A stretch of DNA of 35,585 nt, taken from Amycolatopsis rhizosphaerae (GTDB lineage: Bacteria; Actinomycetota; Actinomycetes; Mycobacteriales; Pseudonocardiaceae). Position 1 is the stretch's first letter; every line of letters starts with the position of its first letter. Positions 6,000-34,699 of this stretch are shown here, in pieces. A program made the translations under genes and the position numbers. Location: positions 1-35,585 of the forward strand of contig NZ_VJWX01000014.1 of NCBI RefSeq assembly GCF_007713715.1, written 5' to 3'. The notes below the pieces were generated by a model that made no database searches, was not told the DNA's origin, and was given only the letters and a program-made list of their open reading frames with translations.

Positions 6000-6013
6000 A
6001 TCAAGCGCTTGGT
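6000..6013. promoter_or_regulatory. KstR2-type operator, fadD17/igr-like operon
   Basis: ATCAAGCGCTTGGT matches AnCAAGnnCTTGnT at every fixed position. It lies in the 332-base divergent gap between fadD17 (minus) and the MaoC gene (plus). Reading toward fadD17, the operator ends in a T that begins the -10-like hexamer TTGGTT (5995-6000), the same geometry as at five other sites in the window. Confidence 0.75.
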
Positions 6014-6166
6014 TACTCCAACTTAGACGCCCCCTTCCCCGTCGTCAACCGTGTCGACAGCGACAGCCACGGGCACCTTGCCCGCGGCGCTCAGGGCAGC
6101 CCGAATCCATGTTCCAGACGTTCGCCGGACTGGAATGTCGTCCCACCGGCTGCGCCCGGGGAATGA

Positions 6167-6191
6167 ACCGAGCGCTTGCTTGGCATATGAT
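6167..6191 (+). promoter_or_regulatory. Near-consensus KstR2-type operator and -10 box before the MaoC gene
   Basis: ACCGAGCGCTTGCT (6167-6180) differs from AnCAAGnnCTTGnT at one fixed position (G for A). A good -10 box TATGAT follows at 6186-6191, about 40 bases before the MaoC start at 6232. It is the second site in this divergent gap and probably controls the plus-strand operon. Confidence 0.6.
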
Positions 6192-6231
6192 GCCGGTCGG
6201 GGCCAGGGCAACGACCGAGAGAGGAGCCGCC

Positions 6232-6717
6232 ATGCCGGCGGAAGCGGAAACCGCACAAGAGGACCGGTTGGTCGTCCGGGGACTCGCCGGGCTGCGCGCA
6301 GCGGTCGGCACGATGCTCGGTCCGACCGCGTGGCTCTCGATCGACCAGCAACGGATCGATGCCTTCGCCGACGTCACCGGCGACCACCAATGGATTCACG
6401 TCGACCCCGGTCGAGCCCGCGAGTCGCCCTTCGGCTCCACCATTGCCCATGGCTATCTGACCTTGTCGCTCTGCAACTACTTCCTGCCACAACTGCTCAG
6501 CGTCGAAGGCGTGAGCATGGGGCTGAACTACGGCGCCAACCGGGTCCGCTTCCCCGCGCCGGTACCCACCGGAGCCCGGATTCGTGGTCGCGGAGAAATC
6601 CTTACCTGCGAAGATATTCCCGGCGGCGTGCAGGCGACGATCCGGATTGTCGCCGAGGTCGAGGGCGGGACCAAGCCGGGCTGTGTCGTCGAGACGCTCA
6701 ACCGCTGGCTGGTCTGA
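6232..6717 (+). CDS. MaoC-family (R)-enoyl-CoA hydratase
   Basis: A 161-residue single hot-dog protein. It carries the complete hydratase motif: DVTGDHQWIHVDP, then ESPFGSTIAHGYLTLSL (about residues 48-80), with the catalytic Asp and His. Length and motif match stand-alone (R)-specific hydratases such as mycobacterial HtdZ, so it probably hydrates a trans-2-enoyl-CoA. A later segment, MGLNYGANRVRFPAPVPTG, is also typical. The ATG has a clear GAGAGGAG ribosome site. It is the first gene of a plus-strand unit with two SDRs, divergent from the igr-like operon and behind its own operator. The natural substrate is likely a steroid-derived CoA ester, inferred from context only. Confidence 0.85.
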   Translation: MPAEAETAQEDRLVVRGLAGLRAAVGTMLGPTAWLSIDQQRIDAFADVTGDHQWIHVDPGRARESPFGSTIAHGYLTLSLCNYFLPQLLSVEGVSMGLNYGANRVRFPAPVPTGARIRGRGEILTCEDIPGGVQATIRIVAEVEGGTKPGCVVETLNRWLV

Positions 6718-6783
6718 CGGGGCCAGCGGCGGGCTACCCACCCGTCACCGCACACCAGCGCCGACCTCGCAGAAGCGTCTACT

Positions 6784-7368
6784 GTGGATAGTCTGGGATT
6801 CGAACCGGGTGACGTCGTCGTGGTCACCGGCGCCGGGAGCGGGATCGGCCGCGCCATCGCCGTCGCCGCGGCCGCCGCGGGGCTGACCGTCGCGGTCTGG
6901 GACCTCGACACGGACAGCGCGCACGCGACCGCGGCGGAGATCGGCGAGGCCGGGCACAAGACCGTCGCGGCCGCGGTCGACATCGCCGACGCCGGTGCCG
7001 TGACGGCCGCGATGTCGTCGGCCTCTTCGGCGGGGCCGGTCCGGTACCTGGTGAACAACGCCGGTCCCTCGAGCGCGTCCGCGCTGGGCTTCGACGATGC
7101 CGTCCGCATAGCACTGGGCGGTACCCGCGGGGTCACCGAGGCATTTCTCGCCACCGGCACCGCGCACAGCCTGGTCAACGTCGCCTCCGTCTCGGGAACC
7201 ACACTCGGCTCGGCCCCGGACTGGTACCCCGCGGTGAAGGCGGGCATCGCCGGGTACACCCGGCACCTGGCCACCTATCGAAGCGAGGAGGTGCGGGCGA
7301 ACGCGGTGGCACCGGGTCTGATCGCCACCCCGCGCATGCGGGACGGCGGCTGGACGGTGGCCCAGTGA
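6784..7368 (+). CDS. Short-chain dehydrogenase/reductase, C-terminally short
   Basis: A 194-residue SDR with the NAD(P) loop VTGAGSGIG (about residues 14-22), the NNAG motif, and catalytic Ser and Tyr-x3-Lys in VASVSG and WYPAVK, spaced 13 residues apart as in the family. Classical SDRs run about 250 residues. This one stops after APGLIATPRMRDGG and lacks the usual 40-residue tail that closes the substrate pocket and dimer interface. The stop is followed by no recognisable continuation in another frame, so this is a genuinely short protein or an old truncation. The start is GTG at 6784 with only a weak ribosome site, 66 bases after the MaoC stop. The function is probably oxidation of a hydroxyacyl-CoA or steroid hydroxyl, by context. 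Confidence 0.7.
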   Translation: MDSLGFEPGDVVVVTGAGSGIGRAIAVAAAAAGLTVAVWDLDTDSAHATAAEIGEAGHKTVAAAVDIADAGAVTAAMSSASSAGPVRYLVNNAGPSSASALGFDDAVRIALGGTRGVTEAFLATGTAHSLVNVASVSGTTLGSAPDWYPAVKAGIAGYTRHLATYRSEEVRANAVAPGLIATPRMRDGGWTVAQ

Positions 7369-7425
7369 CGCATTTGCGGTGAGCGGGCGCGCGGGTGGCC
7401 CTATCGCTTTCTCAAGGAGGACGGC

Positions 7426-8244
7426 ATGGTGACGAAACACCAACCCGGACCACTGCTCGCCGGCCGCACGGCCGTGATCACCGGCGCCGCAGCGGGAATC
7501 GGCCGCGGTATCACCGAGGCCTTCCTCGCCCACGGCGCCCGGGTGCTGGCCGTGGACGTCGATGCGGCCGCGCTGGCGGGCCTGGACAAGAGGGCCGGTG
7601 ACAGCCCGCTTGCCACGCTCCGGGTGGACGTGACCGCTCCGGGCGCGGCGCGCCGGATCGCCGACGAGTGCGAGCCCGACGTGGTGGTGCACAACGTGGG
7701 CCATTTCCTGCGCCCACCCACCGAGTTCGGCAGCGAGGCCCCGGCCGCGTGGGCCCGGTCGCACGACGTGAACTTCGGCCACGTGCTGACCCTGACGCAT
7801 GCGCTGCTGCCCGGAATGGTCTCACGAGGCCGGGGCGGCAGCATCATCACCCTGACCACTGTGGAGGCCTTTCGGGGAATCCCAGGGCACGTCGCGTACT
7901 CGGCCTACAAGGCGGCGGCCGGGCAGTTCACCCGCAGCCTCGCCGTGGAAACGGGACGGCACGGGGTACGGGTCAACGCGATAGCACCGGACGTGGTGGA
8001 AAGCCGCCAGCTGCCGTACTCGGACTGGGTCGGCGAAACCGACCGGTGGCGGTGGGCCACCTGGGCGCCGCTGGGCAGGCACGGTACCGCCGACGACGTG
8101 GCCGGGGCCGCGCTGTTCCTTGCCTCCGACCTGTCGTCCTTCGTCACCGGCACCACGGTCCACGTGGACGGCGGCACCCTGGCGGCGGGTGGCTGGTATC
8201 CCCGGCATGGCGGCGGGTGGACCAACCGTCCCCTCGATCCTTGA
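7426..8244 (+). CDS. Short-chain dehydrogenase/reductase with altered active site
   Basis: A 272-residue SDR starting at an ATG with a strong AAGGAGG ribosome site. The Rossmann loop VITGAAAGIGRG lies at about residues 18-29 and YSAYK is the Tyr-x3-Lys pair. Two family positions are changed: NNAG reads HNVG, and the catalytic Ser 13 residues before Tyr is Thr (TLTTVEAF). The usual PLGRHGTADDVAGAALFLAS and a glycine-rich C-terminus are present, extended by a tail GGWTNRPLDP. Threonine can sometimes replace the serine, so activity is possible but unproven. It is the last gene of the plus-strand unit and converges on fadD3. Confidence 0.8.
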   Translation: MVTKHQPGPLLAGRTAVITGAAAGIGRGITEAFLAHGARVLAVDVDAAALAGLDKRAGDSPLATLRVDVTAPGAARRIADECEPDVVVHNVGHFLRPPTEFGSEAPAAWARSHDVNFGHVLTLTHALLPGMVSRGRGGSIITLTTVEAFRGIPGHVAYSAYKAAAGQFTRSLAVETGRHGVRVNAIAPDVVESRQLPYSDWVGETDRWRWATWAPLGRHGTADDVAGAALFLASDLSSFVTGTTVHVDGGTLAAGGWYPRHGGGWTNRPLDP

Positions 8245-8449: not shown

Positions 8450-10057
8450 TCAGACCTGCTCCTTCAGTTCACGCTTCAGCAGTTTCCCGGAGGCGTTGCG
8501 CGGCAAACTGCGGACGAACTCGACCGATCGGGGCCGCTTGTAATTGGCCAGCCGCTCCTTGCAGTACGCCAGCACATCCTGCTCGGTCAGGTCCGCCTCC
8601 TCGGAGCGGATCACGAACGCCTTGCCGACCTCACCCATCCGCTCGTCCGGCACGCCGACCACCGCGACGTCATGAACCCCGCCGAGGTAAGCCAGTGCCT
8701 GCTCGACCTCCGCCGGATAGACGTTGAAACCACCGGACACGTACATGTCCTTCAGCCGGTCGGTGATCGTCAGGTAGCCACGCTCGTCCAGGACACCGAC
8801 GTCGCCGGTGTGCAGCCATCCCCCGTCGTCGATGACCTCCGCCGTCGCCGCCGGGTCGTCGAGATAGCCGACCATCGCGTTCGGGCCGCGGACCACGACC
8901 TCACCCGCCTCGCCCGGAGGCAGGAACCTGCCCTCGACGTCGACCGTCGCGACTTCGAAACCGGAGGTGGCACGGCCCGACGTGTGCGAAACCGTCTCCG
9001 CGTCGTCGCCGGGCCGGCACATCGTCACCACCACGGCCTCGCTGAGCCCGTACGCGGTGAGCACCGTTTCGAACCCGAGGTCGGCCTGCATCCGTTCCAC
9101 CAGTGCGACCGGAACGGTCGCGGCACCCGTCACCGCCAGCCGGAGGCTGGGCAGTGCGCGGCCCGCCCGTTCCGGAGCGTGCAGCAGCGTCTGGAAGACC
9201 GTCGGCGCGCCCGCGAGCACGCTGATCCGCTCGCGTTCGGCGAGCTCAAGCAGACCGGCCGGGTCGAAGACGGCCTGCGGCAGCATCGCGGCGCCGGTCA
9301 GCAGGCACACCAGGATTCCGGCCTTGTAGCCGAAACTGTGCGAGAACGGGTTCACCAGCAGGTACCGGTCACCGGCCCGCATCCGCCCGCAGTCGGCCCA
9401 CGCGGCCGCCACACCGAGCGCCTGGCGGTGTTTCGACATCACACCCTTGCTGCGCCCGGTCGTGCCCGAGGTGAACAGAATGTCGGCGAGGTCCTCACCG
9501 GACACCCCGTCCGCACGCGCCTCGACCTCGGCTGCCGTCACCCTTTCCGCGTACGAGGGCAGCTCGTCCCAGCCGACCTCGCCGCCGGCCGGTACATCCG
9601 GCTCGCCCATCGGTACCCTGACCACCGCGCGCAGCTCCGGCAGGCCCGCCACCACCTCACCCGGCCCTTCCCCGGCGGCGTCCCGGATGCCGGCCAGCCG
9701 GTCGGTGCCCAGGAACGTTCCGGCGACCACGAGCGCGCGGGCCCGGCTGCGCCGCAGCAGATCGACGGTCTCGGGACCGGTGAACCTGGTGTTGACAGGG
9801 ACGAGCGTCGCACCCGCGTAGGAAGCTCCCAGCGCGGCGAGAATCCAGTGGTGGGTATTGGGCGAGTTCAGCGCCACCCGGTCACCGGGCCGCACCCCGA
9901 GAGCCGCGAAGGCCCTCGCCACCTCCCGCACCCGAACGCCGAGCTGCGCGAAGGTCAGCCGTACCCGACCGTCGACGAGTGCCTCGGCATCCCCGAAGCG
10001 CTCGGCCGCGGCCCGCACCGCCGAAGGGATCGAATCCACCCAGCGCGCCTGTTCCAT
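8450..10057 (-). CDS. fadD3: HIP-CoA ligase, FadD3-like acyl-CoA synthetase
   Basis: A 535-residue ANL-superfamily ligase. The adenylate loop ILFTSGTTGRSKG lies at about residues 193-205, YGLSEAVVVTMC and GWLHTGDVGVLDERGYLTITDRLKDM follow, and the end LPRNASGKLLKRELK holds the adenylation lysine. FadD3 in Mycobacterium and Rhodococcus activates HIP, the propanoate left after rings A and B are removed, to HIP-CoA, the first step of C/D-ring catabolism and the source of the KstR2 ligand. The call rests on similarity to FadD3 and on lying in one operon with ipdA, ipdB and echA20. The ATG follows GGAGG, 12 bases after ipdB. It is the last gene of the minus-strand operon that starts at 14099. Confidence 0.85.
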   Translation of the reverse strand: MEQARWVDSIPSAVRAAAERFGDAEALVDGRVRLTFAQLGVRVREVARAFAALGVRPGDRVALNSPNTHHWILAALGASYAGATLVPVNTRFTGPETVDLLRRSRARALVVAGTFLGTDRLAGIRDAAGEGPGEVVAGLPELRAVVRVPMGEPDVPAGGEVGWDELPSYAERVTAAEVEARADGVSGEDLADILFTSGTTGRSKGVMSKHRQALGVAAAWADCGRMRAGDRYLLVNPFSHSFGYKAGILVCLLTGAAMLPQAVFDPAGLLELAERERISVLAGAPTVFQTLLHAPERAGRALPSLRLAVTGAATVPVALVERMQADLGFETVLTAYGLSEAVVVTMCRPGDDAETVSHTSGRATSGFEVATVDVEGRFLPPGEAGEVVVRGPNAMVGYLDDPAATAEVIDDGGWLHTGDVGVLDERGYLTITDRLKDMYVSGGFNVYPAEVEQALAYLGGVHDVAVVGVPDERMGEVGKAFVIRSEEADLTEQDVLAYCKERLANYKRPRSVEFVRSLPRNASGKLLKRELKEQV

Positions 10058-10069
10058 CTTTCTTTCCTC

Positions 10070-10792
10070 CTACGCGGGGATCTCCCGATCCCGTAACGAT
10101 TTCGGGTCGAGGATCTCGCGGATCAGACGCAGTTCCGTCTCGTCCGGACCAGGCGTGACGGACGCATCCGAGCAGTCGACCGGGAACGACGTCGCCGCCG
10201 CCACGTCGGCCGAGGTCACGCCGGGATGCAGGGACACGGCGCGCATCGACCGGTCCGGGGCACCGAAGTCGAACACGCCGAGGTTCGTCACGACCCGGTA
10301 CAGATCGTGGAAGCGCAGGCCCGCCTTGGCCGCGTTGTCGTAGCCGACGCCGGACACGACGTCCACGGACTCGACGAAGACCCGCTTGCTGTGCTTGGGA
10401 ACCCAGTAGCTGGTCCGGTGGTTCGCCGTGTTGCCGGGTGCACCCCGCATGCCGAGCAACTGTCTGGCCGGGCGGGCGTGCCCGCCGATCGCGGAGATGT
10501 TCTGGTTGCCGAACCGGTCGATCTGGCTCGCCCCCATCACGACGTGCCGGCGCCCGTACGGCACGATGACCTCGAGCATCCTGCCGAACGGCTGCCAACC
10601 CTCGACGACACCGTCGGCGTCCACCAGACGGGCTTCACCGTCCGACATCAGCAGTTCGGGCTCGAAGGTGAGCCGGGCGAGCTTGGCGCCCAGTGACGGG
10701 ATCACCCCGAACGGACTCGCCAGTACGGCCCCGTCACCCCGGAACAGCTCGGCCGCCGCCTTGACCGCGACCTCCGCCCTCGACACGCTCAT
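10070..10792 (-). CDS. ipdB: COCHEA-CoA hydrolase beta subunit, IpdB
   Basis: A 240-residue class I CoA-transferase-fold beta subunit. The segments GASQIDRFGNQNISAIGG and GAPGNTANHRTSYWVP are characteristic of IpdB. Where true CoA transferases carry the SENG catalytic glutamate loop, this protein has LMSDGEARLV, agreeing with the published view that IpdAB is a ring-opening hydrolase rather than a transferase. With IpdA it opens ring C of COCHEA-CoA during steroid C/D-ring degradation. The ATG overlaps the ipdA stop (ATGA), giving coupled translation and equal subunits. The length is close to the roughly 250 residues of mycobacterial IpdB. Confidence 0.92.
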   Translation of the reverse strand: MSVSRAEVAVKAAAELFRGDGAVLASPFGVIPSLGAKLARLTFEPELLMSDGEARLVDADGVVEGWQPFGRMLEVIVPYGRRHVVMGASQIDRFGNQNISAIGGHARPARQLLGMRGAPGNTANHRTSYWVPKHSKRVFVESVDVVSGVGYDNAAKAGLRFHDLYRVVTNLGVFDFGAPDRSMRAVSLHPGVTSADVAAATSFPVDCSDASVTPGPDETELRLIREILDPKSLRDREIPA

Positions 10793-11655
10793 CGAGCAGC
10801 CTCCGCTTCAAAACGGTCTACTTCGGACAGATAAGTTCGCTCGTCGCCGGAGAGGAACCTGTCCACGAACCCCGGCCACTCCTCGAGATCCTTGGCGCAG
10901 GCCGCATAGTGGCGCTGGAACCGCTCGTCCCGGCCGTAGTCGGGCACCGCGCTGGTGAAGTGCGCGCCGCGCGGCGCTTCCACCACACCCTCCACCATCG
11001 ACCGGTTGAGCAACAGCGACTGGAGAGGGCCGCTCTCGGTGAGCTCCCCGGTGCCGACGATCTTCTCCACCGAGACGAACCGCTTCCTCGCGGCCAGGCA
11101 GTACAGGTCGTCGAAATACGGATCGGGCCCGAGGTACTGGGCGTTGCCCCGGGCATCGGCGCGGTTGAGGTGCACCAGCGCCACGTCCAGGTTCAGCGAG
11201 GGAACCGCGAGCAGGTCTTCGCCGTCGTCATAGGGTGAGCGCACCGTCCGCAGTTGCGGGTTGAGCCGTGGCACATCGGAACCGAGACCGGCGCGCGTCG
11301 GCAGGAACGGCAGGCGCTCCGCCGCCGCCCGCAGCGCGACACAGAACATGCCCTCGTCGTACTCGGTCACCTCGATCGCCCCGGTCTCCCTTGCCCGCCC
11401 GAACCAGGGGTCGAAAGCGATCGAGTCGAGGGTCACGAACCCGAACACGACCCGGCGGACCTTCCCGGCCGCGCACAGCAGCCCGACGTCCGGGCCGCCG
11501 TAGGACACCACGGTCAGGTCCTTCACCGAGGTCCGTAGCAGGGCACGGACCAGGGCCATCGGCTTGCGCCGCGAGCCCCACCCGCCGATCCCGATCGTCA
11601 TCCCGTCGTTGATCTCCGCCGCCACCTCGTCGGCGGTCATCCGCTTGTCAGTCAT
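10789..11655 (-). CDS. ipdA: COCHEA-CoA hydrolase alpha subunit, IpdA
   Basis: A 288-residue class I CoA-transferase-fold alpha subunit. The N-terminal GMTIGIGGWGSRRKPMALV is the CoA-transferase glycine loop. VTEYDEGMFCVALRAA near residues 96-110 contains the acidic residues that correspond to the region important in mycobacterial IpdA, and LPFLPTRAGLGSD follows. It forms the IpdAB heteromer that hydrolyses the C ring. It overlaps echA20 by 8 bases upstream and ipdB by 4 bases downstream, so it sits in the middle of a tightly coupled operon. The length agrees with mycobacterial IpdA (about 292). A generic glutaconate CoA-transferase is the alternative, but echA20 and fadD3 beside it make IpdA much more likely. 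Confidence 0.92.
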   Translation of the reverse strand: MTDKRMTADEVAAEINDGMTIGIGGWGSRRKPMALVRALLRTSVKDLTVVSYGGPDVGLLCAAGKVRRVVFGFVTLDSIAFDPWFGRARETGAIEVTEYDEGMFCVALRAAAERLPFLPTRAGLGSDVPRLNPQLRTVRSPYDDGEDLLAVPSLNLDVALVHLNRADARGNAQYLGPDPYFDDLYCLAARKRFVSVEKIVGTGELTESGPLQSLLLNRSMVEGVVEAPRGAHFTSAVPDYGRDERFQRHYAACAKDLEEWPGFVDRFLSGDERTYLSEVDRFEAEAAR

Positions 11656-12406
11656 CGTCTTTTTCTTTGTCCTTCAGGAATGCTTCGCGGGCCTCGTCCG
11701 AGGCGCCGAGGAGGTTGAGTTCGAAGGTGAATCCCTGCTCGAAGCGGTAGCTGCGGTGCACGTGCTGGGTGTCGATGCCGTTGAGTGCTTCCTTGGCCGC
11801 GCGGATCACCCGGGGGTCCTTCGCCGCGATGTCCCGGGCCACCTCCAGCGCGGCCTCGTCGAGACCCTCGCGTGGCACCACCCGGTAGACCGAGCCGTAG
11901 GCGTGCAGTTCGGTGGCGGTGATGGTGCGCGCGGTGAAGTACAGGGTGCGCATCAGGTGCTGCGGCACCAGGCGGGCCAGGTGGGTCGCCGCGCCCAGCG
12001 CGCCGCGCTCGACCTCGGGCACCCCGAACGTCGCGTCCGCCGAGGCGATCACGACGTCGGAGTTGCCGACGAGCCCGATGCCACCGCCGAGGCAGAACCC
12101 GTGCACCGCCGTCACCACCGGCACCGCGCAGTCGTAGACCGCGCCGAACGCCGCATGACAGCCGCGGTTCGCGCCGACCAGCGCGCCGTAGCCGCTGTCA
12201 CGCTGGATCTCCTTGATGTCGACACCGGCGTTGAACCCGCGGCCTTCCGCGCGCAGCACCACCACGTGCACGTCCGGGTCCTCGCCCGCCCGACGGACCG
12301 CGGTGGCGAGGTCGAACCAGCCCTGCACGGGCAGGGCGTTCACCGGCGGGAAGTCGACGGTGACGACCTCGATGTGTTCCTCGATACGCTTGACTGTGAT
12401 CGGCAT
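11648..12406 (-). CDS. echA20: Ring-D-opening crotonase, EchA20
   Basis: A 252-residue crotonase-superfamily protein. The oxyanion-hole loops are GRGFNAGVDIKEI and HGFCLGGGIGLVGNSDVV. Compared with enoyl-CoA hydratases, the first catalytic glutamate (GGGCELA) is Gly here (GGGIGLV), while the second is kept in FGVPEVERGALGA. EchA20 in Mycobacterium hydrolyses the D ring of HIEC-CoA rather than hydrating a double bond, which fits this altered site. Length (247 in M. tuberculosis) and position directly before ipdA match. The ATG overlaps the stop of the upstream SDR by one base. A generic enoyl-CoA hydratase is less likely given the context. Confidence 0.9.
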   Translation of the reverse strand: MPITVKRIEEHIEVVTVDFPPVNALPVQGWFDLATAVRRAGEDPDVHVVVLRAEGRGFNAGVDIKEIQRDSGYGALVGANRGCHAAFGAVYDCAVPVVTAVHGFCLGGGIGLVGNSDVVIASADATFGVPEVERGALGAATHLARLVPQHLMRTLYFTARTITATELHAYGSVYRVVPREGLDEAALEVARDIAAKDPRVIRAAKEALNGIDTQHVHRSYRFEQGFTFELNLLGASDEAREAFLKDKEKDDD

Positions 12407-14107: not shown

Positions 14108-14130
14108 ACACTACCAAGCACTTGCTTGGT
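14108..14130 (-). promoter_or_regulatory. KstR2-type operator overlapping a -10 box, ipd operon promoter
   Basis: ACCAAGCACTTGCTTGGT (14113-14130) is a near-perfect 18-base palindrome; its first 14 bases match AnCAAGnnCTTGnT exactly. On the minus strand it runs directly into TAGTGT (14113 to 14108), a plausible -10 box sharing one T with the operator. A bound repressor would cover the -35/-10 spacer. Confidence 0.75.
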
Positions 14131-16847: not shown

Positions 16848-16850
16848 GAC

Positions 16851-27319: not shown

Positions 27320-28339
27320 TCAGGTGCCGACGGGCACCACCCGGCGAAGATGGTGGTGTGGCTGCCCGAACAACTGCGCCGTGCCGTGGGCGCGTTTGAA
27401 GAAGCGATGCGCTTCGTGCTCCCACGTGATCGCGATACCACCGTGCAACTGGACCATTTCGGCGGCTACGGCCGAGAACGCTTCGGAACAGTAGGCCCTC
27501 GCGACCGCAGCGAGCCGAGGCAGGTCTGCGTTGGGCTCGCTCGTCGCATAGGCTGCCGACCGGGCGGTCTCGGTCGCGACGTACATGTCGGCCATCCGGT
27601 GCTTCAACGCCTGGAACCCGCCGATGGGGCGGCCGAACTGCTTGCGCTGCTTGGTGTAGGAAATCGTGATCTCCAGGGCACGCGTGGCCGCTCCCGCCTG
27701 CTCCGCCGCCAGGACGGCGCAGGCCAGGTCACGGGTACGGCCGAGCCCACGCCGGAAGTCACCGCTGCCGATCCGCACCGCCTGCACCGCGGTGAGTTCG
27801 ATGTCGGCCAGGCGCCGGGTCTCGTCCATCGCGGGCGTGTGCCTGCGACGAGCCTGTTGAAGATCCACCTCGAACAGGCCCAGTTCACCGCCGGTATCCG
27901 CCACCACGAGCAGGACATCGGCGATATCGCCGTCGAGGACGTACCGAGCATGACCATCCACAACGGATCCCGACGCGGTGAAGGCCGCTCGTGACGGATC
28001 CCAGGTGCCCTCCGCCGAGGTCCAGGCGAGCGCCGCGACCGCGCCCTCAGCCAGCAACGGCAGCAGGCGTGCCGCCGCTTCCTCGTCACCCGTCTCAAGA
28101 ATGGCCTGCGTGGCGAGTACCCCGGATCCGAGAAACGGGGCGGGACTCAGTGCCCTGCCCAGTTCCTCTGCCACGACTTGCGCTTCTCGCAGGCTCGCGC
28201 CAAGTCCGCCGTGCGACTCGGGAATCAGCAGCGCCGCGACGCCGACCTGGTCGCAGAGCAACTTCCAGGGCTCGGCGTGCCGCTGGAGCACGGACCGGAC
28301 CGTATCGCGGAGTGCCTCCTGTTCAACGGTGAAGGTCAT
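27320..28339 (-). CDS. fadE33: Acyl-CoA dehydrogenase, FadE33-like non-catalytic-type subunit
   Basis: A 339-residue short acyl-CoA dehydrogenase, near the 318 residues of mycobacterial FadE33, and third of the fadE31-32-33 set in the same order. It has VGVAALLIPESHGGLGASL, YTKQRKQFGRPIGGFQALKHRMAD, and MVQLHGGIAITWEHEAHRFFKRA. The central helix (GLGRTRDLACAVLAAEQAG) lacks the Glu-Arg catalytic pair, so it is probably the partner subunit of a heterotetramer. This group dehydrogenates the open-chain CoA ester after IpdAB ring opening. The ATG overlaps the fadE32 stop (ATGA), which excludes the longer upstream reading. Confidence 0.85.
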   Translation of the reverse strand: MTFTVEQEALRDTVRSVLQRHAEPWKLLCDQVGVAALLIPESHGGLGASLREAQVVAEELGRALSPAPFLGSGVLATQAILETGDEEAAARLLPLLAEGAVAALAWTSAEGTWDPSRAAFTASGSVVDGHARYVLDGDIADVLLVVADTGGELGLFEVDLQQARRRHTPAMDETRRLADIELTAVQAVRIGSGDFRRGLGRTRDLACAVLAAEQAGAATRALEITISYTKQRKQFGRPIGGFQALKHRMADMYVATETARSAAYATSEPNADLPRLAAVARAYCSEAFSAVAAEMVQLHGGIAITWEHEAHRFFKRAHGTAQLFGQPHHHLRRVVPVGT

Positions 28340-29286
28340 ACCAACGCCTCCAGAATTCGCCGACGGTGGAACGCCGGTGTGCCCCAAGCGCCCACGAGCG
28401 CCCGCACCTTGGTAAGGCTGAGGCCGAGCGAGTGCTCCGCGGTGTAGCCGATCGCGCCGTGCACCTGCAGACCGGTGCGCGCCGCCAGAGAGGCGGCCTC
28501 GCCCGCGGCGACCTTGGCCGCGGACACGTCACGGGTACGTACCGGCGAGCCGGTGGCGACAGCGGCGGCGTACAGCAGGGGGCGAGCCAACTCGAGCTTC
28601 GTCGCGACGTCGGCGAGGAGGTGTTTGATCGACTGGTACTGGCCGATCGCCCGGCCGTACTGCCTGCGTTGTTTCGCGTACGCGACGCTGGTATCCAGCA
28701 GCCGTTGTCCGGCGCCGAGCAGCTGGGCGGCCGTGGCCAGCGCACCGAGATCGAAGGCACGCCCGGGATCGTCGGCGACACCAAGACGCTCGCCCGGCTC
28801 GACGGCAAACAGGCGCCGGGCACCGTCTACGGAGGACAGTGCGCTCGTCGGTGTGCCCGCCCGCAGGTCGGTTCCCGCCACGTAGACGCAGAGGTCCGCG
28901 ATATCCGCGTCCAGAGCGTACGGGACATGGGGCGGGTTTGCGATCGACACGAGCTTCTCGCCCGCGGCGACTCCTTCCAGACTCTCGTCTTCGAAGAGCG
29001 CGGGCAACACCGCGACCGTCTCGACCCAGGGGCCCGGCACGGTGTGATAGCCGAGCCGTTCGAACGCGACGACCAGATCGACGGCGGTCGCGGCAAGGCC
29101 GCCGAATCGTTCCGGTATCACCAGCGCGGTGACGCCCAGCTCCGCGAGCGCGTGCCACACCTTGCGCCCGGGCTCGTGCTCGCCCACCGTCCAGGCGCGG
29201 ATGACGGCGGTCATGTCGAGATCGGACAGCAGGTGGTCCATGCTGGCCGCGAAATCGGTCTGCTCCTGCGACAGTGCGAATCTCAT
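28336..29286 (-). CDS. fadE32: Acyl-CoA dehydrogenase, FadE32-like non-catalytic-type subunit
   Basis: A 316-residue short acyl-CoA dehydrogenase (mycobacterial FadE32 is about 319). It starts MRFALSQEQTDFAASMDHLL and shows GVTALVIPERFGGLAATAVDLV, YAKQRRQYGRAIGQYQSIKHLL, and VHGAIGYTAEHSLGLSLTK. The catalytic Glu-Arg pair is missing in the central helix (LGALATAAQLLGAGQRLLDT). It likely pairs with FadE31, as in the mycobacterial alpha2beta2 enzymes. The ATG and upstream stop overlap (ATGA), and the same happens at its own end, so the three fadE genes are strictly coupled. Confidence 0.87.
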   Translation of the reverse strand: MRFALSQEQTDFAASMDHLLSDLDMTAVIRAWTVGEHEPGRKVWHALAELGVTALVIPERFGGLAATAVDLVVAFERLGYHTVPGPWVETVAVLPALFEDESLEGVAAGEKLVSIANPPHVPYALDADIADLCVYVAGTDLRAGTPTSALSSVDGARRLFAVEPGERLGVADDPGRAFDLGALATAAQLLGAGQRLLDTSVAYAKQRRQYGRAIGQYQSIKHLLADVATKLELARPLLYAAAVATGSPVRTRDVSAAKVAAGEAASLAARTGLQVHGAIGYTAEHSLGLSLTKVRALVGAWGTPAFHRRRILEALV

Positions 29287-30428
29287 CGGTCACCTCTCGG
29301 CAGGCCCAGCAGGCGTTCCGCAATGGTGTTGCGTTGGATCTGGTCGGTACCGCCATAGATCGGTCCGGCCAGCGAGAACAGCCAGCCGTCGAGCCAGGGG
29401 CTCTTCACCTCGGCGGCCGGACCGAGCAAGTCGAGCGCCGTCTCGTGCAAGTCCACGTCGAGGTGGGACCAGAACAGCTTGTTGACACTCGACTCCGGAC
29501 CGAGGTCGCCGCCTTCGGCGAGCCGGGTCACGGTGCCGTACGTGTAGAGCTGGTAGGCACGGGCGCCGATCCAGGAGTCCACCACGCGGTCGGCGAGGGA
29601 ATCGGGCGCTTGCCCCGGGGTGGCCGACTCGCGCCACAGCGCGATGAGGCGGTCCGCGGCGGCGAGGAACCGGCCGGGGCTGCGCAGGGACAGTCCGCGT
29701 TCGTTGTTCGCGGTGGTCATGGCGACACGCCACCCTTCGCCGGGCTCGCCGATCACGTCGGCGTCCGGGACGAAGACCTCGTCGAGGAAGATCTCGGCGA
29801 ATCCCGGTTCGCCATCAAGCTGCGGGATGGGGCGCACCTGCACACCTGGCGCACGCAGGTCGAACATGAAGTAGGTAAGCCCCTTGTGGCGTTTGCTCTC
29901 CGGGTCGCTGCGAAACAGTCCGAAGGCACAATCGGCGAACGTGGCCCGTGAGCTCCACGTCTTTTGCCCGGACAGCAGCCAGCCGCCGTCGACGCGGGTC
30001 GCCCTGCTACGCAGCGCCGCGATGTCGCTGCCCGCCTCCGGCTCCGACCAGGCCTGCGCCCAGACCTGCTCGCCGCGCGCCATTTTCGGCAGGATACGAC
30101 GTTGCTGCTCGATGGTGCCGTGCGAAAAAAGGGTAGGCGCCAGCATGAAAATACCGTTCTGGCTCACTCGGCCCGGCGCGCCCGCGGCGTAGTACTCCTC
30201 TTCGAAGATGACCCATTCCAGCAGGCTCGCGTCCCGGCCGCCGAACTCGGCGGGCCAGGACACCACCGACCACCGGGAGTCGGCAAGTTTGGCTTCCCAC
30301 AAGCGGTGCTGCTCGAATCCCCGTGTGGTGTCGAACGAATCGAGTGGCTGGGCCGGCACATTGCCGGCGAGCCAGGCGCGTGCCTCGTCACGGAAGACAA
30401 GGGTGCGCTCGTCGAGGTCAAGATCCAT
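29283..30428 (-). CDS. fadE31: Acyl-CoA dehydrogenase, FadE31-like catalytic-type subunit
   Basis: A 381-residue acyl-CoA dehydrogenase (FadE31 is about 377). It has SWPAEFGGRDASLLEWVIFEEEY (core WPAEFGGRDA), WSEPEAGSDIAALRSRA, GWLLSGQKTWSSRA, and a C-terminal IYGGTDQIQRNTIAERLLGL. The helix TTANNERGLSLR holds the Glu-Arg pair proposed as catalytic base in steroid heteromers; YGG replaces the YEG of medium-chain enzymes. It is probably the catalytic partner for FadE32/FadE33 in beta-oxidation of ring-opened C/D intermediates. It begins 9 bases after the crotonase stop. The synteny fadE31-32-33 strongly supports the name. Confidence 0.88.
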   Translation of the reverse strand: MDLDLDERTLVFRDEARAWLAGNVPAQPLDSFDTTRGFEQHRLWEAKLADSRWSVVSWPAEFGGRDASLLEWVIFEEEYYAAGAPGRVSQNGIFMLAPTLFSHGTIEQQRRILPKMARGEQVWAQAWSEPEAGSDIAALRSRATRVDGGWLLSGQKTWSSRATFADCAFGLFRSDPESKRHKGLTYFMFDLRAPGVQVRPIPQLDGEPGFAEIFLDEVFVPDADVIGEPGEGWRVAMTTANNERGLSLRSPGRFLAAADRLIALWRESATPGQAPDSLADRVVDSWIGARAYQLYTYGTVTRLAEGGDLGPESSVNKLFWSHLDVDLHETALDLLGPAAEVKSPWLDGWLFSLAGPIYGGTDQIQRNTIAERLLGLPRGDR

Positions 30429-30437
30429 GCTCTGCCC

Positions 30438-31283
30438 CTATCCGGCCTGCTGGTTCGCGGCACGCATGGTCCGGGCGTCCTGGCCCGCCAGTGAATCGCC
30501 GCCGGTTTCGGCATTGTGTGCATGGGCAAGATGGTGCAGGCCGAACACCGAATCCATGCCCGAGCGCAGCCCCATCAGGTCCTCCGCCTGGTTGACCGCC
30601 TTCTTGGTCAGGGCAAGACCGAATTGCGGCATCTCCGCGATCTTCTCCGCCAACGCGAACGTGGCCTCCTCCAGGGATTCTCTCGGCACGACGCGGCTGA
30701 CCATCCCCCACTCCTTCGCCTGCTGTGCCGAGAACCGCTCGCCGGTGAACAGCACCTCCTTGGCCGCGCGCGGGCCCAGTATCCAGGGGTGCGCGAAGTA
30801 CTCCACGCCGGGAATGCCCATTCGCACCACCGGATCCGCGAAGAACGCATCGTCGGACGCCACGATCAGGTCGCACACCCAGGCCAGCATCAGGCCACCC
30901 GCGATACACGCCCCCTGCACCGATGCGAGCATCGGCTTCGGGATCTCGCGCCAGCGGCGGCACATGCCCAGGTACACTTCGGACTCACGCGCGAAACGTT
31001 GATCACCGCCCGCACGGTCGACGTGATCCCACCACATCACCGCCCTGCGCTCGAACGTTACGTCCACGTCTCGCCCCGGCGTGCCGATGTCGTGCCCCGC
31101 CGAAAAATGCTTGCCGGCACCGGCCAACACGATCACCTTCACCCCGGGATCGTCCACAGCCCGCGTGAACGCCTCGTCCAGCGCGTAGGTCATTGCCGAG
31201 TTCTGCGCGTTCCGGTACTCCGGCCGGTTCATCGTCACCAGCGCGACCGGCCCGTGCCGGTCGTAGCGCACGACCTCGCTCAT
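30438..31283 (-). CDS. Crotonase-superfamily protein lacking both hydratase glutamates
   Basis: A 281-residue crotonase fold protein, first gene of the fadE operon. The oxyanion-hole loops are AGKHFSAGHDIG and GACIAGGLMLAWVCDLIVAS. In enoyl-CoA hydratases the two catalytic Glu fall in GGGCELA and FxxPE; here those positions are Met (GGLMLAW) and Val (FADPVVRMG), so classical hydration is unlikely. Hydrolase, isomerase or decarboxylase chemistry is possible, as with EchA20. The C-terminal half contains GERFSAQQAKEWGMVSRVVP and a long tail ending in a Gly/Asp-rich segment. ATG 31283 follows GGGAGGG; the open frame further upstream is non-coding. The operator at 31354 is shared with the divergent fadE30. 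Confidence 0.83.
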   Translation of the reverse strand: MSEVVRYDRHGPVALVTMNRPEYRNAQNSAMTYALDEAFTRAVDDPGVKVIVLAGAGKHFSAGHDIGTPGRDVDVTFERRAVMWWDHVDRAGGDQRFARESEVYLGMCRRWREIPKPMLASVQGACIAGGLMLAWVCDLIVASDDAFFADPVVRMGIPGVEYFAHPWILGPRAAKEVLFTGERFSAQQAKEWGMVSRVVPRESLEEATFALAEKIAEMPQFGLALTKKAVNQAEDLMGLRSGMDSVFGLHHLAHAHNAETGGDSLAGQDARTMRAANQQAG

Positions 31284-31353
31284 GAGCCCTCCCTCAGCAG
31301 CCTTCCCGGCCGCTTTTCGCGACACCATGGGAACATCGTGATTCCCTCTCCCT

Positions 31354-31372
31354 AACAAGTGCTTGGTAGGGT
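31354..31372 (+). promoter_or_regulatory. KstR2-type operator overlapping the -10 box of fadE30
   Basis: AACAAGTGCTTGGT (31354-31367) matches the consensus fully and runs into TAGGGT (31367-31372), sharing one T. The layout equals that of the ipd and thiolase promoters, but here a 5' leader of about 35 bases with AGGAG follows. The crotonase/fadE31-33 operon diverges from the same gap. Confidence 0.75.
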
Positions 31373-31413
31373 AGCGTACGCACGAGAACCGGCTTTGAAC
31401 AACAGGAGTGGCC

Positions 31414-32547
31414 GTGTCGGATTTCCGAGAACGTGTGCGAGCCTGGCTCGAGGACAACCTCAGCGGAGAGTTCGCCGGCCTGCGCGGTCTCGGCGGGCCC
31501 GGGCGCGAGCACGAAGCCTTCGAGGAGCGCATCGCCTGGGAGCGGCATCTCGCGACCGCCGGCTGGAACTGCCTCGGCTGGCCGAAGGAGCACGGCGGCG
31601 CCGACGCTTCTCTGGAGGAACAGATCATCTTCCACGAGGAGTACGCGCGCGCCGAGGCGCCGGCGAAGGTCAGTCACCTCGGGCAGGAACTGCTTGGGCC
31701 CACGCTGATCGCGTTCGGCACGCCGGAGCAGCGCCGGCGGTTTCTGCCGAAGATCGTCGCGGTCGACGAACTGTGGTGCCAGGGTTACTCCGAGCCGGAC
31801 GCCGGTTCCGACCTCGCCGCGGTGTCCACCAGTGCACGGCTCGACGGTGACGAGTGGGTGCTGCGCGGCCAAAAGATCTGGACGTCGCTCGCGCACGTCG
31901 CCGACTGGTGCTTCGTGCTCGCCAGGACCGAGCCGGACTCCAAGCGGCATCACGGCCTGTCGTACCTGCTGGTCCCGATGAAACAGCCCGGTATCGAGGT
32001 GCGGCCGATCCGCCAGCTCACCGGCACCAGCGAGTTCAACGAGGTCTTCTTCGACGGCGCCCGCACGGCCAGGGACATGGTCGTGGGTGCGCCGGGCGAG
32101 GGCTGGCGCGTCGCGATGGGCACGCTGGCTTTCGAGCGCGGCGTCGCCACGCTGGGACAGCAGGTCGGCTTCCGCCGCGAACTCGCGAGGCTGACCAAGC
32201 TCGCCGAGGCGAACGGCGCCACGGAGGATCCCGCCATCGCCGAGCGCATCTCCCGCGCCTGGATGGGGCTGGAGGTGATGCGCGCGCATGCGCTGCGCAC
32301 TCTCGGTTCGCGGACGCCCGGCGTCGCGGAAGTGTCCAAACTGGTCTGGGCGAACTGGCACCGCTCACTCGGCGAACTCGCGATGACGGTGCGCGGCGCC
32401 GCGTCGATGACCGGTGAGGACCTCGACGAGTGGCAGCGCCTCTACCTGTTCACCCGGGCGGACACGATCTACGGCGGCTCCAACGAGATACAACGCAACG
32501 TCATCGCCGAGCGCGTGCTCGGACTGCCCAGGGAGGTACGTCCATGA
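31414..32547 (+). CDS. fadE30: Acyl-CoA dehydrogenase, FadE30-like
   Basis: A 377-residue acyl-CoA dehydrogenase (mycobacterial FadE30 is about 385). It shows CLGWPKEHGGADASLEEQII, GYSEPDAGSDLAAVSTSA, WVLRGQKIWTSLAHVADW and a C-terminal IYGGSNEIQRNVIAERVLGL. GTLAFERGVATL carries the Glu-Arg pair, and no second subunit lies next to it. In Mycobacterium FadE30 dehydrogenates the propanoyl-CoA side chain of HIP-CoA-type intermediates early in C/D-ring breakdown. GTG 31414 is preferred over GTG 31408 because AGGAG at 31404-31408 is correctly spaced only for the former. Order fadE30-ipdF-kstR2-fadA6 equals that in Mycobacterium. Confidence 0.9.
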   Translation: MSDFRERVRAWLEDNLSGEFAGLRGLGGPGREHEAFEERIAWERHLATAGWNCLGWPKEHGGADASLEEQIIFHEEYARAEAPAKVSHLGQELLGPTLIAFGTPEQRRRFLPKIVAVDELWCQGYSEPDAGSDLAAVSTSARLDGDEWVLRGQKIWTSLAHVADWCFVLARTEPDSKRHHGLSYLLVPMKQPGIEVRPIRQLTGTSEFNEVFFDGARTARDMVVGAPGEGWRVAMGTLAFERGVATLGQQVGFRRELARLTKLAEANGATEDPAIAERISRAWMGLEVMRAHALRTLGSRTPGVAEVSKLVWANWHRSLGELAMTVRGAASMTGEDLDEWQRLYLFTRADTIYGGSNEIQRNVIAERVLGLPREVRP

Positions 32548-33311
32548 TCCCCGTTCCGAAGTATCCGGAAGGATCGAATCTGTTGCGGGACAAGGTGGTC
32601 GTGGTGACCGCGGCGGCTGGCACAGGTATCGGGTCCGCCGTGGCCAAGCGCAGCCTCGAGGAGGGCGCACACGTCGTGCTCAGCGACTGGCACGAGCGCC
32701 GGCTCGCCGAGAAGGCCGAAGAACTCGGCGATGTGCATGCCATTCCCTGTGATGTCACGGACGAGGCGCAGGTCCAGTCGCTGATCGACGGGACGATCGC
32801 GCACTACGGCCGCATCGACGTATTGATCAACAATGCCGGGCTCGGGGGCAGCAGGTCCATCGTGGACATGACCGACGAAGAGTGGTCGCGCGTGCTCGAC
32901 GTGACGTTGGGCGGTACCTTCCGCGCCACGCGGGCGGCACTGCGCGCGTTCATCGCACAGGGAACCGGCGGCGCGATCGTCAACAACGCCTCGGTCATCG
33001 GCTGGCGAGCCCAGGCCGAGCAGGCGCACTACGCCGCCGCGAAGGCCGGTGTCATGGCACTGACCCGGTGCGCGGCCGTCGACGTCGCCGAACACGGGAT
33101 CCGGGTCAACGCGGTGGCGCCGAGCCTGGCGATGCACCCGTTCCTGGCCAAGGTCACCACCGAGGACCTGCTCGAGGAGCTCACCGCACGGGAGGTATCG
33201 GGGCGGGCCGCACAGCCGTGGGAAGTGGCGAACGTGATGGTCTTCCTGGCCAGCGACTACGCGTCCTACCTGACCGGCGAGGTGATCTCCGTGAGCAGCC
33301 AGCATGCTTGA
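32544..33311 (+). CDS. ipdF: Short-chain dehydrogenase, IpdF-like
   Basis: A 255-residue SDR with VTAAAGTGIGSAVAKRSLEEG (cofactor loop near residues 20-30), INNAGLGG, and catalytic Ser and Tyr-x3-Lys in NNASVIGW and HYAAAKAG, correctly spaced. Its C-terminus EVISVSSQHA matches the serine-rich ends of the Rv3559c group. IpdF oxidises the hydroxy group of a HIP-derived CoA ester. The ATG overlaps the fadE30 stop (ATGA), and GGGAGG precedes it. Position between fadE30 and kstR2 is conserved with Mycobacterium (Rv3560c-Rv3559c-Rv3557c), which is the main reason for the name. Confidence 0.88.
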   Translation: MIPVPKYPEGSNLLRDKVVVVTAAAGTGIGSAVAKRSLEEGAHVVLSDWHERRLAEKAEELGDVHAIPCDVTDEAQVQSLIDGTIAHYGRIDVLINNAGLGGSRSIVDMTDEEWSRVLDVTLGGTFRATRAALRAFIAQGTGGAIVNNASVIGWRAQAEQAHYAAAKAGVMALTRCAAVDVAEHGIRVNAVAPSLAMHPFLAKVTTEDLLEELTAREVSGRAAQPWEVANVMVFLASDYASYLTGEVISVSSQHA

Positions 33312-33921
33312 CCAGGGGTCGCGTCGGCGCGCCGAACTCCTCGGAATCGCGGCCCAGTTGTTCGCCGAGCACGGGTACCGGTCCACCACAGTGCGCGATA
33401 TCGCCGAGGCCGCCGGAATCCTCTCTGGCAGCCTCTACCACCACTTCGACTCGAAGGAGTCGATAGCGGACGAGATTCTCAGTGGATTTCTGGACGAGCT
33501 GTTCGCCAGCTACACCGAGATCCTCGCGGCGGGCCTGAAACCGCGGAACGCGATTGAAGCCGTCATCATCGCGTCGTTCGAGGCCATTGATTCCCACCCA
33601 CACGGGGTGTCGATCTACCAGACCGAGACGAAACACCTCGCCAAGCTTTCCCGGTTCGACTATCTCGAACACCGCAACACCGAGTTCCGCAAGCTGTGGA
33701 CAACCATGCTCTCGGACGGCGTGCGCCAAGGCGCGTTCCGTGAGGACCTCGACATCGAGGTCGTCTACCGCTTCATTCGCGACACCGTGTGGGTGGCGGT
33801 GCACTGGTACAACCCCAACGGCTCACTGCCCGTCGGGCAAGTCGCCCGGCAGTACCTGACGATCGTGCTGGAAGGCATCGCGGTACGGCGTCGGCCGGCG
33901 AAGAGGGGGTCCGGCACCTGA
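33304..33921 (+). CDS. kstR2: TetR-family repressor KstR2
   Basis: A 205-residue TetR repressor closely resembling KstR2 over its whole length. The DNA-binding domain (about residues 8-56) has STTVRDIAEAAGILSGSLYH and HFDSKESI. The ligand domain keeps ASFEAIDSHPHGVSIYQTE, YRFIRDTVWVAVHWYNPNGS and QYLTIVLEGI, as in the mycobacterial protein. KstR2 represses the C/D-ring regulon and is released by HIP-CoA, the product of FadD3. It is the third gene of the fadE30 operon, overlapping ipdF by 8 bases, so it would be autoregulated through the operator at 31354. Three paralogues with the same recognition segment lie elsewhere in the window. Confidence 0.93.
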   Translation: MLDQGSRRRAELLGIAAQLFAEHGYRSTTVRDIAEAAGILSGSLYHHFDSKESIADEILSGFLDELFASYTEILAAGLKPRNAIEAVIIASFEAIDSHPHGVSIYQTETKHLAKLSRFDYLEHRNTEFRKLWTTMLSDGVRQGAFREDLDIEVVYRFIRDTVWVAVHWYNPNGSLPVGQVARQYLTIVLEGIAVRRRPAKRGSGT

Positions 33922-34007
33922 AGCGATCCTGCTCGTTCGATGACGTGATCCTCTGGTCCCGTCCGCCGTCCGCGGATCCGAGGCACCCAGGGGAGAAACG
34001 CGGGGGA

Positions 34008-34370
34008 TCACCGATTCTCGTCCGGCGCGGTCGCGGCATCCGGGGCCGAGAGCGGATACGGCGAGGGCCATGCGGCCTCCGCCGGCCGAACCCCCGGCAC
34101 CGTAGGCCGCTCGATCCAGAGTCGATGAAGCTCCCTGCGCGCGAATCGCAGGCACCCGTCCCGCACGAGGTACCTGTCGAAGTACCGGATCACCCATCGA
34201 CTATCGGCTCGGCTCCCGTCCGGAGGTGCCCGGCGGTGGCGCTGACGATCGCTTCCGCGCCATCGCGCCGCTGCGAAGTCAGCGTCACGCCCAGGATTCC
34301 GTGTACCGTCGCGCGATTTGACGCAACCCGTCCGAGGGCCGTGCGGATGGCCGCCCGGCCAACGCACGAA
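34008..34370 (-). pseudogene. Remnant of an NTF2-fold (SnoaL-like) gene
   Basis: The minus strand encodes recognisable NTF2 sequence split between two frames. The first part reads VGRAAIRTALGRVASNRATV and ends HGILGVTLTS...AIVSATAGHLR; the second, one frame away, reads PDGSRADSRWVIRYFDRYLV, then RDGCLRFARRELHRLWIER. The frames would join if one C were restored near 34219-34224 (CTCCGG for CTCCCGG). No N-terminal half is found on this strand, so the gene looks inactive. The 825 bases from kstR2 to fadA6 hold only this remnant, an opposite-strand NTF2-like segment (about 34357-34470) and two operators. A sequencing error could explain the frameshift but not the missing N-terminus. Confidence 0.6.
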
Positions 34371-34476
34371 GTCGACGCTCGTCGGCTGGACGCGGCGGCC
34401 GACCTGTTCCTGCCCGAGGCGGTGCTCGCCCTGCCCGCCAATGCCGACGGCGGTCATGGTCGCATTGTCCGGCACA

Positions 34477-34490
34477 CGCAAGCGCTTGCT
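34477..34490. promoter_or_regulatory. Near-consensus KstR2-type operator beside the NTF2 remnant
   Basis: CGCAAGCGCTTGCT matches the consensus except for the first base. It lies just upstream of the decayed NTF2 gene, so it may be a leftover of that gene's promoter, and about 260 bases before fadA6. Confidence 0.6.
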
Positions 34491-34680
34491 CAAATACTCG
34501 AGGTCCGCGAGGCGCCCATGAGAGCGATCCCACAGACGCTCGCGACCGGAGTCCGCTGGAGACACCGAGACGAATTCGTCCTGCACCAACGGTTCCAGAC
34601 CGAAACGCCGGACTCGCGAACACCGACCGGCAGCGCCGTGGCGCTGGCCAAACCCGGACTCAACTTCTATCGTCAATTTG

Positions 34681-34699
34681 TACAAGCGCTTGGTCGGCT
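34681..34699 (+). promoter_or_regulatory. KstR2-type operator before fadA6
   Basis: TACAAGCGCTTGGT (34681-34694) matches the consensus except for the first base, and runs into TCGGCT (34694-34699) with the same offset as other -10-like hexamers. The fadA6 ATG lies 53 bases downstream of the operator. Confidence 0.68.

Follow-up and report, generated by a model that had tools for sequence, protein, structure and literature searches.

In Mycobacterium, a regulon of 15 genes has been described that is controlled from three sites by one KstR2 (Kendall 2010, PMC3068626), and repression by KstR2 is reported to be released by HIP-CoA, a CoA-thioester breakdown intermediate (PMC5380842). In Nocardioides simplex, 29 KstR2 operons were predicted, and genes of 10 of these were induced by phytosterol (PMC7807495, PMC7593942); the top phytosterol-induced gene (KR76_25195, 59-fold) is an 'ABC amino acid transporter' from cluster C, for which KstR2 control is predicted (PMC7807495). 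A single set of C/D-ring genes is described as usual, with R. equi as an exception (PMC5380842, PMC4810484). Here we analyse 35,585 bp of the Amycolatopsis rhizosphaerae genome (contig NZ_VJWX01000014.1, hereafter the window), which contains 11 KstR2-type operator palindromes and four TetR regulators: a canonical KstR2 and three further proteins, TetR_A, TetR_B and TetR_C. We read the window as one arm of an expanded KstR2-type regulon, whose paralogous repressors at least partly share an operator code and would sense different intermediates, and place the probability of this at roughly 0.56. The motif, its position and conservation, the family of the regulators and the likeness of their recognition helices are established by the data given below.

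The window was searched with the pattern ANCAAGNNCTTGNT, allowing at most one mismatch. This returned 11 matches, six exact and five with one mismatch, against a mean of 0.29 and a maximum of 2 in 100 dinucleotide shuffles, and these are the same 11 places that an earlier sequence-only reading of this DNA had listed (Table 1). The motif corresponds to the published KstR2 operator, a 14-bp palindrome AnCAAGnnCTTGnT situated in promoters (PMC3068626). A codon-usage caller trained on window genes yielded 36 genes, which were grouped by strand and spacing into 12 transcription units. All 11 sites fall outside the called genes, in keeping with the intergenic placement proposed earlier; with 3,481 of 35,585 bp (9.8%) being intergenic, the chance of this is ~8e-12. 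A site is located ahead of all 12 units. The further proposal that sites directly precede their units holds well for 10 units, but less so for TetR_C, where the distance to site 26132 is ~260 or ~390 nt (start at 26407 or 26533), and for TetR_A, which depends on the weak site 19357. The CAAGCGCTTG core is still perfect in three of the one-mismatch sites (21470, 34477 and 34681), but not in the weak sites 6167 (ACCGAGCGCTTGCT) and 19357 (ACCAAGCATTTGCT). Site 34477 is found within an 825-bp stretch devoid of called genes.

The scan was extended to the whole genome (7.67 Mb, 896 contigs, 96% complete), of which the window represents 0.46%. The exact 14-mer occurs at 13 places compared with 3 for a reversed-pattern control, and is distributed over the window (6 places, binomial 1.7e-11), contig C288 (4) and contigs C632, C84 and C39 (one each; the C39 place has an AT centre). 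None of the 13 is wholly within a called gene, the C632 place overlapping the called start of FadE30 by 9 nt. For the core CAAGYRCTTG there are 23 matches, of which the window contains 9 (0.11 expected, 7.7e-16), and 7 of the 23 are wholly inside called genes. Hence the motif is not equally frequent inside unrelated genes, the outcome that the sequence-only reading had named as telling against it. The seven genic core places (C11, C108, C156, C543, C777 twice, C895) were set aside as probably unrelated, as was a place on C532 (GTCAAGTACTTGAC), whose two flanking genes have no Pfam match.

Chance or compositional palindromes devoid of function could be argued for on the genome-wide totals alone: the reversed core is commoner than the core itself (57 versus 23 places), and the one-mismatch version is not in excess (165 places versus 170 for the control). 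Significance therefore lies in the clustering of the core rather than in its total, a lone one-mismatch match means little, and the case for sites 6167 and 19357 is made by their position more than by their sequence. However, the exact and core versions are clustered and intergenic, and they are found again ahead of orthologous genes in other genera, where the clusters are rearranged; on these grounds this explanation was discarded as extremely improbable. Control of the window by KstR was also considered. A separate KstR gene is present on contig C162 (338 bits), and the genome was scanned with TNNAACNNGTTNNA, which we take to be the KstR operator motif. Among 40 exact genome places, one precedes kstR on C162 and none occurs in the window, and KstR-type control there was rejected on this basis.

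The best PDB matches of all four window TetR proteins are KstR2-type structures (2IBD, 4W97, 4W1U), with scores of 255, 192, 154 and 121 bits. The canonical KstR2 scores 255 bits to 2IBD and 225 to 4W97, and the KstR2 proteins of two named Amycolatopsis join it in one clade (support 100/98). A whole-genome search identified six KstR2-like genes with at least 38% identity, the next TetR having at most 31%; these are the four of the window, one on C288 and one on C632. TetR_A, TetR_B, TetR_C and the C288 TetR show 38-49% identity to KstR2. A tree was built from named KstR2 loci, 22 of the 24 selected out of 80 retrieved, together with four of five outgroups; the missing ones did not pass the gene call or a length filter. 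In this tree, KstR2 and the gene on C632 are placed among canonical KstR2. TetR_A, TetR_B, TetR_C and the C288 TetR are set apart from the four outgroup TetR (99/96). TetR_A, TetR_B and TetR_C each pair with an orthologue in a related genome (G012), and the C288 TetR groups with TetRs of clusters in two other genera (genomes G032 and G252), the branching within this paralogue part being only partly resolved and its branches long. The recognition helix is near-identical across the six genes and 22 named KstR2 proteins: it reads [IVM]LSGSLYHHF in five of the six, and VLSGTLYHYF (two changes) in TetR_B. The C-terminal effector halves have diverged, that of TetR_A most. Near-identical recognition helices combined with diverged effector domains suggest that the paralogues most likely share an operator code, at least in part, and sense different intermediates. 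TetR_A is also devoid of the RWY/HWY-like stretch following RFIRDT that is present in some form in the other five, and may sense a different ligand or have lost ligand binding. All six genes belong to units headed by, or adjoining, an operator (TetR_A by the weak site only), and no core site was found in the loci of the six TetR genes that rank next. KstR2-like genes are present in 9 of 19 genomes from the genus: the four that encode the importer binding protein have 2 to 6, and the other five have one each. The KstR2 proteins of two of the same-genus genomes are identical to those of Amycolatopsis acidicola and A. sacchari, from which the source of the window is most likely an Amycolatopsis-like member of the Pseudonocardiaceae.

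The presence of four KstR2-subfamily regulators in the window and two elsewhere implies that the picture of a single HIP-CoA sensor, contained in the original idea of one KstR2 regulon, is too simple, although the operator and the C/D-ring genes belonging to that idea are indeed present. A single canonical KstR2, perhaps together with its 72% identical C632 paralogue, could nonetheless control all sites via HIP-CoA, with TetR_A, TetR_B and TetR_C being mere targets that bind other sequences. Mycobacterium and Rhodococcus are described with one KstR2 and HIP-CoA (PMC3068626, PMC5380842), M. tuberculosis KstR2 bound probes with CG, CA and TG centres (PMC3068626), and the importers of R. koreensis and R. 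hoagii carry the operator, all as this explanation would have it. It fits poorly with the near-identical recognition helix of TetR_A, TetR_B, TetR_C and the C288 TetR, with the tree, where these four group with orthologues elsewhere and not with the canonical clade, and with the G252 cluster, where the sole KstR2-like gene called in 60 kb containing 9 sites is of the C288 type. We therefore consider it unlikely.

The two central bases of the core differ between groups of sites. In the window, the exact sites of the C/D-ring operons (14113 and 31354) have CA and TG centres, and the other seven core sites have CG. Across 80 named KstR2 loci, 62 of 72 intergenic sites have CA or TG, as opposed to CG at all 21 sites of C288, G252 and G032 (Fisher 1.2e-13), including the ipdAB, FadD3 and FadE30 promoters there; the importer site has CA in R. 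koreensis and R. hoagii and CG within the family. Ahead of the recognition helix, the TetR_A/TetR_B/C288 group has VREI, versus VRDI in 22 of 22 named KstR2. This split may reflect paralogues that prefer different centres, or only shared promoter descent. It lowers the reading of a shared operator and raises that of two overlapping regulons, in which canonical KstR2 would occupy the CA/TG sites of the C/D-ring promoters (14113, 31354 and C632) and the TetR_A/TetR_B/C288 group the CG sites of the added modules. However, 51 of the 62 CA/TG sites stem from one orthologous promoter, FadD3/FadE30, and are thus not independent; sites beside kstR2 itself in the named loci are CG in 9 of 11 cases; TetR_C keeps VRDI; and the M. 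tuberculosis protein bound all three centres (PMC3068626). A strict division of operators appears improbable to us.

Conservation of the operators was assessed in 297 genomes of the family Pseudonocardiaceae, in which homologue counts are lower bounds (6 and 4 candidates scored per genome). The LivK binding protein of the importer was found at no fewer than 10 loci in at least 9 genomes, and 9 of the 10 loci found have a core site upstream, ~30-90 nt from the gene or aligned start. CasI-type ligases occur in at least 27 genomes. An operator precedes the unit of 8 of 13 homologues with at least 60% identity (that of the window and seven other genomes), versus 0 of 14 at 47-50% identity, the unit head being outside the stretch in 3 of these 14. 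In G012, CasI has no site of its own but belongs to a long gene run whose first member, a LivK-like gene, has one. The rearranged clusters of G252 and G032 contain core sites that are intergenic in 9/9 and 8/8 cases and that precede importer, CasI, ipdAB, FadD3, thiolase, FadE30 and LLM/NTF2 units; in both genomes CasI is preceded by a pair of sites (spacing 109 and 135 bp), resembling the window pair 6000/6167. In the 80 named KstR2 loci, 72 core sites were found in 141,115 intergenic bp versus 31 in 1,416,106 genic bp, and the core lies ahead of 51/68 FadE30 units and 55/73 FadD3 units versus 37/718 other genes. The proposal that the importer, the igr-like operon and the LLM/NTF2 genes share the operator is thus borne out in other genera, though not in every relative.

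The window importer has a described counterpart in CamABCD of R. jostii RHA1 (ro04888-ro04885), which by its locus tags is likewise a four-gene ATP-binding cassette (ABC) importer (PMC6498646, PMC8399759, PMC6678751) and which re-imports cholate metabolites (PMC8399759, PMC6678751). An orthologous four-gene set was found in 4 of 15 named genomes searched: a R. jostii record (58-75% identity; 58-76% when R. koreensis is included), R. koreensis, R. hoagii (59-73%) and, at 47%, A. acidicola. The R. koreensis importer has one site 22 nt before its called start (12 core places in the genome), and that of R. hoagii has two, ~170 and ~190 nt before the called start (10 core places in the genome). The R. 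hoagii palindromes are 20 bp apart (joined coordinates 23705 and 23725), on a contig other than that of KstR2, and this importer is a likely KstR2 target in Rhodococcus. The R. koreensis importer is located 363 kb from the KstR2 sites, in agreement with the spacing of 287 locus tags between ro04598 (KstR2) and ro04885, in contrast to the window, where the importer is inside the cluster. On the basis of gene number, identity (58-76%) and distance to KstR2, and by comparison with the R. jostii record rather than the RHA1 sequence, the window importer is probably CamABCD, and by analogy its substrates would be cholate metabolites.

A number of observations weigh against the reading of an expanded regulon. 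The CA/TG versus CG split between named KstR2 loci and the C288, G252 and G032 clusters speaks against full sharing, and the window itself includes two weak sites among its 11. Of the nine LivK sites, three fall inside the gene as called (an over-long call), two of the genomes (G001 and G013) are near-twins, and LivK of G106 has no exact operator. Five of the 13 close CasI homologues lack an operator (three of genus g47, G085 and G012), LLM2 and TetR_C of G012 lack an exact one, and no site was found in 20 kb around the LLM/NTF2 genes of G208. An exact site precedes only 5 of the 43 ipdA units in the 80 named loci. The R. jostii importer has a near-match only (ACCAAGCAATTGCT), and the A. acidicola set runs into a contig end, with no site in 13 kb.

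Binding, repression, ligands, shared occupancy and the importer substrate are what we infer in the following model. KstR2-family dimers would bind CAAGNNCTTG palindromes at or near the promoters of the 12 units and repress them, until a CoA-thioester intermediate of breakdown (HIP-CoA in the known case) binds and the dimers are released. A shared operator would open fully only once every paralogue occupying it has been released. The resulting output would join CamABCD-like re-import of steroid metabolites to the activation and removal of the C22 side chain (CasI, ChsE1/E2, ChsH1/H2 and Ltp2) and to C/D-ring breakdown (FadD3, IpdAB, EchA20, FadE30-33 and FadA6), with FadD3 as the starter. Judging by its family name, CasI would act on C22 steroid acids, and the ChsE/ChsH/Ltp2 set would take off the remaining side chain. 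The same operator would extend control to C632, with a second KstR2-FadE30-FadD3 set, and to C288, with IpdAB and an IpdC-like gene. A more elaborate version, which we entertain as a tentative possibility, is a multi-sensor regulon of six paralogues at three loci with one code, in which CG centres form a second layer and opening is stepwise and of an AND type. Importer, side-chain and ring genes would then open as CoA-thioesters appear, for example perhydroindanes with or without a residual C22 side chain. Loss of the A/B rings before final removal of the side chain would, in such a scheme, explain why a side-chain operon is under KstR2-type control.

The other loci with exact sites contain related genes. 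On C632, KstR2, an IpdF-type short-chain dehydrogenase/reductase (SDR) and FadE30 lie on one side of the site, and FadD3, an enoyl-CoA hydratase and FadE31-33 on the other. C288 contains an IpdA-IpdB-nitronate-monooxygenase type (IpdC-like) arrangement, the KstR2-like TetR, a thiolase and a thioesterase around four core sites, all intergenic. No IpdC-like gene was recognised in the window; among the loci read, one was seen on C288 only, and the C/D-ring pathway thus appears spread over loci joined by one operator. At its contig end (joined 19781-21605), C632 also encodes a second Ltp2-ChsH1-ChsH2 set, 44-66% identical to that of the window, in whose vicinity the C632 stretch read has no exact KstR2-type site; there are two side-chain systems in one genome. 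On C84, an operator-like AGCAAGTGCTTGGT is located ~88 nt upstream of a FadD8-type ligase (3361-5040, 1024 bits), outside any steroid cluster read, making this gene a possible extra target.

Genes in the window were named from family matches and from their order in operons, and the names are in part putative, the FadE31/32/33 numbers being assigned by operon order (Table 1). FadD3 scores 706 bits, above the model cut-off. The 252 aa protein encoded at 23702-24460 has no Pfam match at E 5 and no NCBIfam match at 0.001, and is conserved beside side-chain genes in G012 (84%) and G252 (44%); it represents a steroid-linked family that is nameless in Pfam and NCBIfam.

Table 1. Operator sites, transcription units and genes of the window.
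Feature	Position	Strand	Remarks
Operator, exact, CG centre	6000..6013		divergent promoter, CasI operon / MaoC-SDR operon
Weak operator, one core mismatch	6167..6180		7 nt before MaoC start
Operator, exact, CA centre	14113..14126		14 nt upstream of SDR-SDR-EchA20-IpdA-IpdB-FadD3 operon
Operator, exact, CG centre	18962..18975		38 nt upstream of ABC importer operon (LivK)
Weak operator, one core mismatch	19357..19370		75 nt upstream of TetR_A
Operator, exact, CG centre	21437..21450		FadA6 / TetR_B divergent region
Operator, perfect core, one flank mismatch	21470..21483		33 bp from site 21437
Operator, exact, CG centre	26132..26145		LLM2-NTF2 / TetR_C divergent region
Operator, exact, TG centre	31354..31367		between ECH-FadE31-32-33 and FadE30-IpdF-KstR2 operons
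Operator, perfect core, one flank mismatch	34477..34490		257 nt upstream of thiolase
Operator, perfect core, one flank mismatch	34681..34694		53 nt upstream of thiolase
Side-chain operon	1..5899	-	CasI-type ligase, ChsE1, ChsH2, ChsE2, ChsH1, Ltp2-like
CasI-type steroid-22-oyl-CoA ligase	4199-5899	-	best model 630 bits, below 900-bit cut-off
ChsE1	2991-4175	-	best PDB matches Tcur3483 and 4X28
ChsH2	1975-3003	-	best PDB matches 6OK1 and 4WNB, both named ChsH2
ChsE2	860-1975	-	named partly by operon order
ChsH1	441-863	-	named partly by operon order
Ltp2-like, N-terminal part	1-439	-	cut by contig end; named partly by operon order
MaoC-SDR operon	6187..8244	+	MaoC hydratase 6187-6717, SDRa 6784-7368, SDRb 7426-8244
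C/D-ring operon	8450..14099	-	SDR 13311-14099, SDR 12406-13314, EchA20-like 11648-12406, IpdA 10789-11655, IpdB 10070-10792, FadD3 8450-10057
Liv-type ABC importer, CamABCD-like	14269..18924	-	binding protein 17725-18924, permease 16851-17708, fused permease-ATPase 15012-16847, ATPase 14269-15012
TetR_A, KstR2-subfamily repressor	19445..20059	+	C-terminal half most diverged
FadA6-like thiolase	20201..21424	-	
TetR_B, KstR2-subfamily repressor	21654..22241	+	
Further genes of the TetR_B unit	22238..24460	+	SnoaL-like 22238-22768, LLM flavin oxidoreductase 22765-23688, conserved unknown open reading frame 23702-24460
LLM-NTF2 module	24585..25936	-	LLM oxidoreductase 25070-25936 (start may reach 26110), NTF2-like 24585-25073
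TetR_C, KstR2-subfamily repressor	26533..27213	+	start may be 26407
ECH-FadE31-32-33 operon	27320..31328	-	enoyl-CoA hydratase (ECH) 30438-31328, FadE31 29283-30428, FadE32 28336-29286, FadE33 27320-28339
FadE30-IpdF-KstR2 operon	31408..33921	+	FadE30 31408-32547, IpdF-like SDR 32544-33311, canonical KstR2 33304-33921
Thiolase	34747..35585	+	cut by contig end

KstR2 control occupies a central place in actinobacterial steroid breakdown and has been described with three sites and one regulator, and the present cluster provides a natural system for how paralogous repressors divide ligands and near-identical operators. Our reading predicts that KstR2 also targets the importer of cholate metabolites in Rhodococcus, and may bear on an Amycolatopsis strain that is reported to metabolize cholate without the known actinobacterial cholate cluster (PMC4810484). 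In a literature search mostly without subscription papers, we found neither KstR2 control of camABCD nor a genome with several KstR2 paralogues described. KstR3 of Mycolicibacterium neoaurum was considered as a rival by virtue of its name and dropped; the word 'motif' is absent from that text (PMC10398937).

The window shares with the KstR2 regulon of Mycobacterium and Rhodococcus the operator AnCAAGnnCTTGnT, KstR2 itself and homologues of fadD3, ipdAB, echA20, fadE30-33, fadA6 and ipdF, as well as short distances from motif to start at most promoters (PMC3068626). Unlike in Mycobacterium, where the regulon is restricted to C/D-ring genes, there are 11 sites with 36 called genes in the window, two more loci and six KstR2-subfamily genes, and the operator is also carried by the importer, the CasI/igr-type operon, the LLM/NTF2 genes and the TetR units. 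The set of ChsE1, ChsE2, ChsH1, ChsH2 and Ltp2 is common to the window, the M. tuberculosis igr operon and the cholate enzymes of Thermomonospora curvata. The mycobacterial igr operon is a member of the KstR regulon, whereas the igr-type operon of the window is headed by a CasI-type ligase and a KstR2-type operator. Likewise, chsE2, chsH1, chsH2 and ltp2 of N. simplex are listed under KstR (PMC7593942, PMC7807495), in contrast to the window set. N. simplex resembles the window in having more KstR2 sites than Mycobacterium, and has two ipdAB sets (PMC7807495). A regulon wider than that of Mycobacterium, as the sequence-only reading had it, is thus supported by the extra modules that carry the operator, but is not unprecedented given the 29 operons predicted in N. 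simplex (PMC7807495). The available N. simplex table has one kstR2 gene (PMC7807495), compared with six KstR2-subfamily genes here. Operator and repressor are already known; the differences from the known KstR2 system lie in how far the regulon extends, in its paralogues and in the fact that it includes the importer and the side-chain operon.

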